From: Candidatus Izemoplasma sp.
GTDB taxonomy: Bacteria > Bacillota_I > Bacilli_A > Izemoplasmatales > Izemoplasmataceae
Assembly (NCBI GenBank): GCA_036172455.1
Contig: JAXKVY010000001.1
Coordinates: forward strand, 1 to 64,000
DNA length: 64,000 nucleotides
Direction of reading: 5' to 3'
This document shows, one piece after another, positions 6,384-30,764 of this stretch; the stretch's first letter is position 1; each line of letters starts with the position of its first letter. The translations under genes and the position numbers were made by a program. Under the pieces are notes generated by a model. It had not been told where the DNA came from and ran no database searches. It worked only from the letters and a program-made list of their open reading frames with translations.

Positions 6384-6460
<77 letters not shown>

Positions 6461-6616: not shown

Positions 6617-7681
6617 ATGTTTACATTAAAACAACTACCCCCAAAAGCAAATTTCAATAAGACAGAGATATTATATAAAACAATTGCTGCTCATAAGGCT
6701 TTAGCAGAATTGAAAGGATACTCAGATGTATTACCAAATAAGAATATATTAATCAATGCAGTAACAATTAATGAAGCAAAAGATAGTTCAGAAATTGAGA
6801 ATATTATAACGACACATGATGAGTTGTATAAGGCACTTAGTACATCAAATGCAAGCATTGCTGCAAAAGAAGTGGTTAATTATCGGACTGCTTTATGGAA
6901 TGGGTATGAGTTAATTAATGAGTATGGATTTTTATCAATCAACATGATTGTGAAAATCCAATCTATCGTGGAGCAAAGTGAAGCAGGAATTAGAAAGGTA
7001 CCGGGTACTGTATTACGAAATGAGCGAACAAAAGAAACAGTATATACACCACCGGTTGGTTATGACGAAATTATCCGACTAATGACAAATTTGGAGGAGT
7101 ATATTAATAATGATGAAGATCAAATTGATGATTTGATAAAATTAGCAGTGATTCATTATCAATTTGAGTCTATTCATCCATTTTACGATGGAAATGGAAG
7201 AACTGGGCGAATCATCAATGTCATTTATCTTACCTTGAAAGGGTTGCTGGATACACCTATATTGTACCTAAGTTCTTACATCAATAATAATAAAGCTGAT
7301 TATTATCGTCATCTTCAGGAAGTTCGAGATACAGATTCGTGGGATGGTTGGGTATTATATATGTTAGAAGGTATAGCCGAAACAGCAACTAAAACGTTAA
7401 ACATTATGAAGCGTATTAATCAACTTATAGAGGAAATGATTGAAGAAATTAAACAAGCTTTACCAAAAATTTACTCAAAAGAGTTAATTGATGTTATTTT
7501 TTATGAGTTTTATACGAAGATATCATTTGTGGAAAAAGGTGTGGGTGTCACTCGTAAAACAGCATCAAGTTATCTTTCTCAGTTAGAAGATAAAGGATTT
7601 TTGCGATCAGAAAAGATTGGGAGAGAACGAGTTTATGTAAATGAACGTTTATATGAAATGATTAAAAAAGCTAATTTCTAG
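6617..7681 (+). CDS. Fic-domain protein (AMPylase type) with C-terminal winged helix
   Basis: Fic proteins move AMP (sometimes another nucleotide part) from ATP to a hydroxyl on a target protein. The motif HPFYDGNGRTGR is complete at 187-198, with catalytic His187. Residues 57-62 (SSEIEN) match the inhibitory [S/T]xxxE[G/N] motif, which in class II Fic proteins lies N-terminal to the Fic core and blocks ATP, so the enzyme is probably autoinhibited. The last ~80 residues look like a winged-helix DNA-binding domain (VTRKTASSYLSQLEDKGFLRSEKIGRERVY). Ribosome site AAAGGAT. The gene stands alone between a tRNA-Arg gene and a decayed copy of it, which suggests arrival by transfer. No antitoxin or integrase is present. 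Confidence 0.9.
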   Translation: MFTLKQLPPKANFNKTEILYKTIAAHKALAELKGYSDVLPNKNILINAVTINEAKDSSEIENIITTHDELYKALSTSNASIAAKEVVNYRTALWNGYELINEYGFLSINMIVKIQSIVEQSEAGIRKVPGTVLRNERTKETVYTPPVGYDEIIRLMTNLEEYINNDEDQIDDLIKLAVIHYQFESIHPFYDGNGRTGRIINVIYLTLKGLLDTPILYLSSYINNNKADYYRHLQEVRDTDSWDGWVLYMLEGIAETATKTLNIMKRINQLIEEMIEEIKQALPKIYSKELIDVIFYEFYTKISFVEKGVGVTRKTASSYLSQLEDKGFLRSEKIGRERVYVNERLYEMIKKANF

Positions 7682-8105: not shown

Positions 8106-8134
8106 TTGAAAATAAAATTATTATAGGTTATACT
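8106..8134 (+). promoter_or_regulatory. promoter of the repeat lipoprotein gene
   Basis: TTGAAA (8106-8111), 17-base spacer, TATACT (8129-8134), followed by GAGAGGAG and the ATG at 8155. Confidence 0.6.
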
Positions 8135-8154
8135 AATCTTGAGAGGAGATTATT

Positions 8155-9456
8155 ATGAAAAAAATAATTGTTATGTTAGTGTTTCTATTTATTCTTACAT
8201 TAGCATCATGTGATTTACCAGACGATAATAATGACTCTGATAATATTTTATTTGAGTTACCACCATTTGCTACATATTTCTTAGGTCTAAATGACGATTT
8301 AACTCAAGAGCAATTCAGTTCATTAGATGGTATTGAATCTGTCTATGAATTAGAAGGCGATGTAGTTATTACTATCAGTGAAGATTTCGAACTCAGAGCT
8401 TCTGGATCGCGTGGTGGATTTGCCGTTGGTGGGTTTTCTCCAGCAATACTAATTGGTGGCGATTCTGACGATGATAATGATCCGCTTTCAATAGAAGCGT
8501 TATTAGATTTTCCACAAATTAAAAACGCTAGAGAAGAAGATGGTAAAATTGTAATTACCATTGATTCGAGTGACGATTTTGAACTCAGAGCTTCTGGATC
8601 GCGTGGCGGATTTGCTGTTGGTGGATTTAGCCCAGCTATTGCGTTTACGGATTATACAGATGATGATATGTATGAAGAAGCGATTGCGAACCTTGATAAA
8701 GTACATCAAGTTTATACGAATCCTGATGGTCTAACGACATTATTGCTTGATACATCTTTAACTTATAGAACCATGTTAACTGCGTCAGGTAGTAGAGGTG
8801 GATTTGCTATGGGTGGATTTACTCCTGCTATCTTATGGACTGACGATGAGGATGATGATACGAGTGTTGATCTAGATTCTATGGTTTCCACAATGGCTAT
8901 TAAAAGCGCGGAAATTAATGATAATAATCAGCTGAAGATAGTCGTTGAAGAAGGTTTTAACATTAAATTTTCTGCATCAGGTTCTCGTGGTGGATTTGCT
9001 GTGGGCGGATTTACTCCTGCTATTTTAATCACTGAAGATACAGATGATGATACATTAGACAGTGCTTTAATGTTTAGAAATCATGCTGCCATTGAGTCAT
9101 ATACAATACATAATGATGGGTCTTCATCTGTTGTATTAAATAAAAATAATCTAGATGCTTTTATAGATATATTCCATAAAGAATTAACATCATTTTTAAA
9201 AGAAATGCCCCGTGAATATTATGGCATGAAATATGACGACATCATATATGAACAAGATTTATCTGTAATTGAACTCATTGTTAATGAAGAATTTGTTGCT
9301 AAACATGACTTAAATAATGAGTATTACTCAAATATGTATAAGACATTAGAACACTACCAGTACTTATTCCATCTCTTTAGTGAAAATAATATGTCGTATG
9401 AATTTATTGTCCGATATGAAGACAAAACTTTTTATAGACATACATTGTATGAGTAA
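8155..9456 (+). CDS. lipoprotein with four 64-residue repeats carrying ASGSRGGFAVGGFSPAI
   Basis: Family not recognised. A lipoprotein signal peptide ends in LTLASC (Cys19 predicted lipidated), so the protein should sit on the outer face of the membrane. A 17-residue motif ASGSRGGFAxGGFxPAI occurs at 82-98, 146-162, 210-226 and 274-290, exactly 64 residues apart. Each copy follows a short strand-like segment (VVITISEDFELR, KIVITIDSSDDFELR, KIVVEEGFNIKF) and is followed within a few residues by an Asp-rich stretch (DSDDDND, DYTDDD, DDEDDD, EDTDDD). The last ~130 residues are unique. The repeats suggest tandem small domains with a glycine loop and an acidic, possibly cation-binding, turn. An alternative is a repeated ligand or processed peptide. 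Monocistronic. Confidence 0.85.
   Translation: MKKIIVMLVFLFILTLASCDLPDDNNDSDNILFELPPFATYFLGLNDDLTQEQFSSLDGIESVYELEGDVVITISEDFELRASGSRGGFAVGGFSPAILIGGDSDDDNDPLSIEALLDFPQIKNAREEDGKIVITIDSSDDFELRASGSRGGFAVGGFSPAIAFTDYTDDDMYEEAIANLDKVHQVYTNPDGLTTLLLDTSLTYRTMLTASGSRGGFAMGGFTPAILWTDDEDDDTSVDLDSMVSTMAIKSAEINDNNQLKIVVEEGFNIKFSASGSRGGFAVGGFTPAILITEDTDDDTLDSALMFRNHAAIESYTIHNDGSSSVVLNKNNLDAFIDIFHKELTSFLKEMPREYYGMKYDDIIYEQDLSVIELIVNEEFVAKHDLNNEYYSNMYKTLEHYQYLFHLFSENNMSYEFIVRYEDKTFYRHTLYE
8398..9024 (+). repeat. fourfold coding repeat inside the lipoprotein gene
   Basis: Motif copies at 8398-8448, 8590-8640, 8782-8832 and 8974-9024, period 192 bases. The first two are nearly identical in DNA. The third and fourth differ mostly at silent positions, so the amino-acid motif is being kept while the DNA drifts. 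Confidence 0.9.
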
Positions 9457-9903: not shown

Positions 9904-10818
9904 ATGAAAAAATTAGTATTTAAGAATCGTATTGTCAACATTGTTGTAGGATCAATCTTTATATTGCTGGCGGCAGTCGGTTATTTTTCGGGATGGATTG
10001 AAGAGTTTTTACCAATCTTTATCGCAACAGTCATTTTGTTCATCGCCTTAAAACAATTTATCTTTTCATTTCGTGAGATATCAAATAAGAATGCCATTAT
10101 CATACTATTGATTGAGATATTATTAGATTTTGGTATTGTAGCTGCGATGATTTATTATGGAACATACCTTAATCTATTGATTGGAGCGTTTATTTACTTA
10201 AGAGGGTTAGTATATCTTATTATTAATTTTGTCACAGACCGTGACATTGAATTTGGCGAATATATGTTGCATATCGTCTTTATTACTGTAGGAGCATTTT
10301 TCCTCTTTACATCAATAGATACCCAAACCGTCTTAATCTTAACATTAACAGGTATTTTAGCCATTATTGGAATCATTTATTTACAAGATGGCATTCGTAA
10401 GGTCTTAAAAAAACAACAAGCACAAAAAAAGACCAAACAAAAAACTGAAAAAGTCAAAGAGAAAAAAGAGAGTACAATAAGCCAAGAATTAAAAGAAACC
10501 TATAAGTCATCACCACAAAAAGAAAATAAGGATAAAAAACCTGCAACACCGAGTCAAACCCATAAAACAACAAAACCAGAAACTGAATTACCTGCTGGTA
10601 AGAAAGTGAAAGATACAACTGATAAAAAGGTTGACTCACCAGATAAAAAAACGGTGGCTGAAGAAACCATTAAAGTGAACAAAGGCCCAGATAAGTCTGC
10701 TTTGTTTGATAAAACAGTTGTTGAACTTAAAGAGATGGCAAGAGATAGAAATTTATCTGGCTATTCTCAATTAAAGAAATCAGAACTTGTTGACTTAATC
10801 GTAAAAAACGACAAATAA
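9904..10818 (+). CDS. HdeD-like (DUF308-type) membrane protein with lysine-rich linker and C-terminal SAP-like domain
   Basis: Residues 1-160 form about six hydrophobic segments in short repeated pairs, like HdeD/DUF308 proteins. Residues ~163-262 are a low-complexity linker very rich in Lys, Glu, Thr and Pro. The final 38 residues (TVVELKEMARDRNLSGYSQLKKSELVDLIV) match the helix-turn-helix-like SAP/Rho-N fold, usually a nucleic-acid-binding unit. The sequence thus suggests a membrane anchor tethering a DNA- or RNA-binding tip on a flexible basic arm. The function is not known. ATG with AAAGGAA upstream; single gene. Confidence 0.75.
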   Translation: MKKLVFKNRIVNIVVGSIFILLAAVGYFSGWIEEFLPIFIATVILFIALKQFIFSFREISNKNAIIILLIEILLDFGIVAAMIYYGTYLNLLIGAFIYLRGLVYLIINFVTDRDIEFGEYMLHIVFITVGAFFLFTSIDTQTVLILTLTGILAIIGIIYLQDGIRKVLKKQQAQKKTKQKTEKVKEKKESTISQELKETYKSSPQKENKDKKPATPSQTHKTTKPETELPAGKKVKDTTDKKVDSPDKKTVAEETIKVNKGPDKSALFDKTVVELKEMARDRNLSGYSQLKKSELVDLIVKNDK

Positions 10819-30537: not shown

Positions 30538-30544
30538 ATCGGTA

Positions 30545-30764
30545 AATACAAGGAATAGGAAGAGTAAAGTTAACTTATGGTGTAGAGAATTAGTGGTTGG
30601 TGAAAACTAATGCATAATTAACTTGAAGGTAGCCTTGGAGTAGTGATACTGAAAACCAGTAGGTATCAACGTGTCTCGCGTTAAGAGATTAAGTGCTAGT
30701 TATTAGAACTAAGGTGGTACCGCGGACTTTATGGTTCGTCCTTTTACAAGGACGGACTTTTTTT
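30545..30764 (+). promoter_or_regulatory. T-box riboswitch (tRNA-Val) controlling valS
   Basis: Leader that reads through a terminator when tRNA-Val is uncharged. The T-box AAGGTGGTACCGCG is at 30711-30724. The likely specifier codon is GTA at 30629-30631 in GAAGGTAGCC on the 3' side of stem I. The terminator GTTCGTCCTT/AAGGACGGAC (30734-30757) ends in T7, and the T-box sequence can compete with its 5' side. valS starts 20 bases later. Confidence 0.93.

Follow-up and report, generated by a model that had tools for sequence, protein, structure and literature searches.

The window, by which we mean the whole stretch of 64,000 nucleotides analysed from a Candidatus Izemoplasma genome, carries near its start a gene for a surface lipoprotein in which a short glycine-rich core occurs four times. 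The features of the gene are as follows.

8106..8134, plus strand: promoter-like site TTGAAA-17-TATACT, a consensus match only, at 10 of 12 consensus positions
8141..8149, plus strand: likely ribosome-binding site GAGAGGAGA, from the sequence
8155..9456, plus strand: lipoprotein open reading frame, 433 aa, ATG start, read from the sequence
8155..8211, plus strand: signal peptide with lipobox L-A-S-C19, by reading; Pfam LPAM_1 matches only below cut-off
8266..8457, plus strand: 64-aa unit 1 (aa 38-101), set by register, core near the C-terminal end of the unit
8398..8448, plus strand: core 1, ASGSRGGFAVGGFSPAI (aa 82-98)
8458..8649, plus strand: 64-aa unit 2 (aa 102-165), set by register
8590..8640, plus strand: core 2, ASGSRGGFAVGGFSPAI (aa 146-162)
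8650..8841, plus strand: 64-aa unit 3 (aa 166-229), set by register
8782..8832, plus strand: core 3, ASGSRGGFAMGGFTPAI (aa 210-226)
8842..9033, plus strand: 64-aa unit 4 (aa 230-293), set by register
8974..9024, plus strand: core 4, ASGSRGGFAVGGFTPAI (aa 274-290)
9034..9225, plus strand: fifth unit, without a core (aa 294-357), with an acidic run and helix-like and hairpin-like parts in register
9016..9453, plus strand: C-terminal domain (aa 288-433), with weak resemblance over aa 288-377 to the Bacillota lipoprotein domain of L129-L133

The lipobox, LASC at residues 16-19 with C19 as the lipidated position by reading, makes a typical lipoprotein signal and bears out the lipid anchoring proposed in the initial annotation. 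That annotation also described four exact 64-residue repeats. The spacing is exactly 64, and the 17-residue core, ASGSRGGFA[V/M]GGF[S/T]PAI, which starts at residues 82, 146, 210 and 274, is near-identical throughout: cores 1 and 2 are the same, core 3 has V to M and S to T, and core 4 has S to T. Exactness does not extend to the rest of the units, where 3 to 8 of 47 residues are identical. An Asp-rich run comes after every core, as had been observed (DSDDDND, DYTDDD, DDEDDD and EDTDDD); the core itself has one charged residue and consists mostly of Gly, Phe, Ala and Val. When the five units, including the coreless fifth, are compared in register, their similarity exceeds that obtained by shuffling (p=0.0004) or by circular shifts (p=0.0008). 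This signal lies mostly in the acidic columns. What the units share in register is chiefly the acidic run and, ahead of a hydrophobic strand, a turn of the DG type; outside the core they retain only that run and a weak pattern of helix and hairpin. The protein may be pictured as an array of units of about 64 residues, each with an acidic run, a putative helix and a putative beta-hairpin, of which four end in the core. An AlphaFold2 model of the lipoprotein has a pLDDT of 34.6, below useful confidence.

At the DNA level the four cores have drifted. About half of the same-residue codons differ between copies, while the peptide changes at no more than 2 of 17 positions. The closest pairs at silent sites are cores 1/2 (6 of 17 same-residue codons differ) and cores 3/4 (5 of 16), where random draws from codon usage give about 11. 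The four comparisons across these pairs show differences in 8-11 of 15-16 same-residue codons, with 10.0-10.7 expected. Silent sites are near saturation across the core array, and the core peptide is preserved. Both the silent drift between copies 1/2 and 3/4 and the selection on the motif itself, as first proposed, are upheld; silent sites so nearly saturated beside a peptide hardly changed support selection acting on the core peptide.

The gene sits in a variable slot. Five relatives examined have other genes there and no homologue of the lipoprotein, which agrees with its earlier assignment to the accessory part of the window. A tRNA-Arg gene (6384-6460) lies upstream, and between the two is a gene for a SoFic-type Fic/DOC protein (6617-7681; PADLOC SoFic, E 4.7e-115). 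Because the SoFic gene lies beside both tRNA-Arg and the lipoprotein gene, the slot resembles a small accessory island linked to a tRNA. Downstream, the YcxB-NUDIX-DUF2779-trigger factor block is for the most part conserved among relatives. In the membrane protein encoded at 9904-10818 the linker is long and charged, and the C-terminal domain is of the Rho_N type (PF07498). Elsewhere in the window, a T-box leader (30542-30746; Rfam) stands directly 5' of a valyl-tRNA synthetase-like gene. The neighbours of the lipoprotein gene (sulfatase, SoFic, membrane proteins, NUDIX, DUF2779, trigger factor) include no modifying or processing enzyme adjoining it, so that the suggestion of a precursor of repeated peptides gains no support.

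A whole-protein search of GTDB contigs, plasmids and phages found no relative of the lipoprotein, and in relatives of the host such a search matches the signal peptide only. The core profile has no match in 391 other genomes of a phylum sample or in 89 other genomes of the order, three of which belong to the same genus, and within its own genome the core pattern is confined to the lipoprotein gene. Since the relatives of the host are without it, the core was probably acquired horizontally. The host assembly measures 1.69 Mb, and most of the relatives also have small genomes. No known profile family in Pfam, NCBIfam, PHROGs or PDB covers the lipoprotein or the core; a resemblance to the Caf1 F1 antigen was rejected, being weak (Pfam 0.027, PDB 0.009) and out of the 64-residue register. 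Cation binding, another early suggestion, drawn only from the Asp runs, is not supported; searches of Pfam and NCBIfam up to E 10 found neither RTX GGxGxDxUx nonapeptides nor any calcium-binding profile in the lipoprotein.

The initial annotation knew of no family with this core. As to profile families that holds; relatives of the core nevertheless occur, as shaft repeats of S74-type fibres in Bacteroidota. A degenerate DNA pattern for GSRGGFAxGGF, run over GTDB contigs, matched in Bacteroidales, Marinilabiliales, Chlorobiota-named genomes, one Patescibacteria-like contig and two frames that look like chance matches. In Bacteroidota the proteins are exported fibres of large size, built of an N-terminal domain and shaft repeats of the form '...EYLRVTPDSVRVYIDD..KGSRGGFAVGGFSPGK'. 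YadA-like head repeats are often present in them, as is an S74 chaperone domain (PF13884, E 3e-18; present in L008), and many tail-fibre PHROGs match them. The core is a tandem shaft element of these fibres, with 4-38 core-profile matches per genome. Core fibres occur in 45 of 393 genomes of one Bacteroidota order and in 2 of 296 genomes from an even draw of the phylum of that order. Neither Pfam nor PDB yielded an entry for the shaft repeat, and no NCBIfam match rose above cut-off; for the strings GGFAVGGF and SRGGFAVGG, searchable only where open-access text prints them, no paper was found. An AlphaFold2 model of the fibre shaft, from 22 sequences, reached a pLDDT of 54.2, below useful confidence, and all Foldseek matches had E>=1, several of them being trimeric fibre shafts.

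On single Bacteroidota contigs (L169, L176, L163 and L192), five to eight fibre genes with the core are clustered in tandem. The core also occurs on a third scaffold, an 84-aa protein on the Patescibacteria-like contig (L015:7230-7484), which ends in ...GADIYIEQEPEENVKVSGSRGGFAVGGFNSE. An 88-aa phage protein encoded shortly before terminase genes (L101:4998-5264) starts with MGSKGGFAVGGFTPGY, a close match to the core that is possibly due to chance. Tailspike-like proteins of phages L110, L111 and L114, with GTLGGGFAIGGFSPS or GGFAIGGFGPS, and look-alikes in other phage proteins were judged chance and set aside.

A fibre-repeat HMM built without the lipoprotein finds all four of its cores, at 21.9-31.5 bits; with those cores masked, the same HMM gives no significant match. 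Lipoprotein and Bacteroidota fibres both carry an identical core peptide in tandem on an exported protein, and in each the core comes after an acidic turn and a hydrophobic strand of short length. They differ in spacing, mostly 38-50 residues in the fibres and 64 in the lipoprotein, and in what lies between: the inter-core hairpin YLRVTPDSVRVYI of the fibres has no counterpart in the lipoprotein by the masked-core HMM, whereas the lipoprotein has an acidic run with a helix insert, and a lipobox. Pfam finds neither the S74 chaperone nor a YadA-like head in it. YadA-type left-handed beta-roll heads likewise carry short Gly-rich strand-turn repeats on a surface adhesin, but their repeats differ from those of the lipoprotein in length and consensus.

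The units weakly resemble instead a Bacillota lipoprotein domain, compared here through real members (L129-L133; consensus 'TIPAEFVGE.TQEDL...GYKSITLNDDGSATYxMTKxxHKEM'). This domain, without a Pfam or NCBIfam match, was found on virus-classified contigs and plasmids. Its proteins are lipoproteins, like the 433-aa protein with its lipobox, and show a PA-acidic-helix-hairpin order with 'DGS' that is colinear with the 64-aa unit and with aa 288-377; unlike the 433-aa protein, they have no repeats and no core. By hhalign, aa 288-377 match at E 0.0033 (probability 10%) and a profile of the 64-aa unit at E 1.4e-4 (probability 53%), which is no more than suggestive of a relationship between the units and this domain. 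Because masking the cores leaves no fibre match, and the units look toward the Bacillota domain instead, the core seems to be shared between lipoprotein and fibres and the scaffold not.

The fibres allow the evolution of the core to be followed across many genomes. We compared 11 core positions of cores 1 and 2, taken from orthologous slots (core 1 after VFAVYxxGVRVYV, core 2 after EYLRVTPDSVRVYI), in 103 fibres from 30 genomes. In this sample, whose genomes are unequally related and whose core-finding pattern fixes GFA[V/I] and misses strongly divergent cores, identity between core 1 and core 2 is 0.868 within the same protein, 0.862 between different proteins of the same genome, and 0.554 between genomes. 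Core 1 compared with core 1 between genomes does no better, at 0.55. With one fibre per genome, the mean for core 1 against core 2 is 0.839, against a shuffled mean of 0.479 and a shuffle maximum of 0.567. A small but significant extra match is seen within proteins (0.885 vs 0.861; 0 of 1000 shuffles). When fibres of equal flank divergence are compared, agreement between cores still holds within a genome (0.80-0.95) and does not hold between genomes (0.50-0.61 below 90% flank identity). The hairpins between the cores are not matched (0.381 within proteins vs 0.435 between genomes). The acidic turn varies in the fibres while the core does not, which again lends cation binding no support. No core1-core2 pair is identical in nucleotides, neither among 103 same-protein pairs nor among 718 same-genome cross pairs, and 0.477 of same-residue codons differ, where the codon usage of the genomes predicts 0.508. 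Core copies that belong to the same fibre genome evolve in concert as peptide. The lipoprotein shows the same core signature on a small scale, as a single case with no sequenced relative; the data on concerted evolution come from the fibres.

Because the peptide is re-matched genome by genome without homogenisation of the DNA, the core behaves as would be expected of a surface in contact with one common partner. Since the lipoprotein shows the same signature, we tentatively favour, at somewhat less than even confidence, a core that serves as an interaction surface for packing or docking, likeliest core to core, displayed four times on a lipid-anchored surface protein. Such a putative contact surface would be obliged to match its partner, and the likeliest partner of a core would be another core. 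The cores that pack together might belong to one chain, to different chains of an oligomer, or to separate fibres expressed together; core-core contact would account for the matching within proteins and also for that among paralogues in tandem gene clusters. In the lipoprotein, four cores, set at a constant interval of 64 residues along a lipid-anchored arm, may lead to self-association or repeated docking at the cell surface. The multivalent display proposed at the outset may also apply and comes close to this reading.

Same-genome matching would be accounted for equally well if the core were a short recognition motif for a genome-encoded partner acting in trans, be it a modifying enzyme, a surface receptor or an anchor, which would co-evolve with every copy in the genome. 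Identity between proteins of one genome is about that within a protein (0.862 and 0.868, with 0.554 between genomes), and the core stands on unrelated scaffolds, including the 84-aa protein of L015 and possibly the 88-aa phage protein of L101; both points fit such a partner. No candidate gene was seen, however, in the fibre gene arrays inspected or next to the lipoprotein gene; a horizontally moved core would need its partner in the new host too, and the extra match within proteins (0.885 vs 0.861, 0/1000 shuffles) points to contacts in cis. We regard a partner in trans as somewhat unlikely. Unlikely, in our estimate, is that the core is a strain-specific homotypic tag, self-sticking and common to the fibres of one genome, which passed from phylum to phylum on scaffolds of different kinds and would let the lipoprotein self-assemble or join Bacteroidota fibres with the same version.

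Binding of an external ligand, such as a glycan, a surface or the fibres of another species, with the array providing avidity, would suit the repeated display on exported proteins in lipoprotein and fibres alike, as well as the stretch of 14 residues (GSRGGFAVGGFSPA) in which the lipoprotein core is identical to fibre cores from a single Bacteroidota genome (L008). A core with one charged residue and mostly Gly, Phe, Ala and Val is unlike typical ligand sites, however, and we think this improbable. Quite improbable, too, is convergence, in which a Gly/Phe-rich strand-turn element arose independently in lipoprotein and fibres. Scaffold similarity between the two is absent, and large databases do hold chance-like look-alikes (an alphaproteobacterial ORF, a Bosea frame, and phage tailspikes with GGGFAIGGFSPS); yet the match covers about 15 residues and takes in the hydrophobic strand and acidic turn ahead of them, and lipoprotein and fibres alike have the core as the invariant part of a tandem array on an exported protein. 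Ordinary tandem duplication, with cores of no special function kept alike by gene conversion, is largely contradicted and scarcely credible, for although tandem arrays and clustered fibre paralogues favour recombination, 0 of 821 same-genome core1-core2 comparisons are identical in nucleotides, silent sites are near codon-usage saturation and flanks are not homogenised; rare, short and old conversion followed by silent drift may still have contributed in the fibre cores.

A near-identical peptide of about 15 residues, common to the fibre paralogues of one genome and re-matched in each genome, is an unusual sign of co-evolution at the peptide level. It points to an undescribed rule of self-recognition or docking in bacterial surface fibres, and with the peptide also present on a lipoprotein of another phylum, unrelated to the fibres, its role may be probed in a small and tractable protein.
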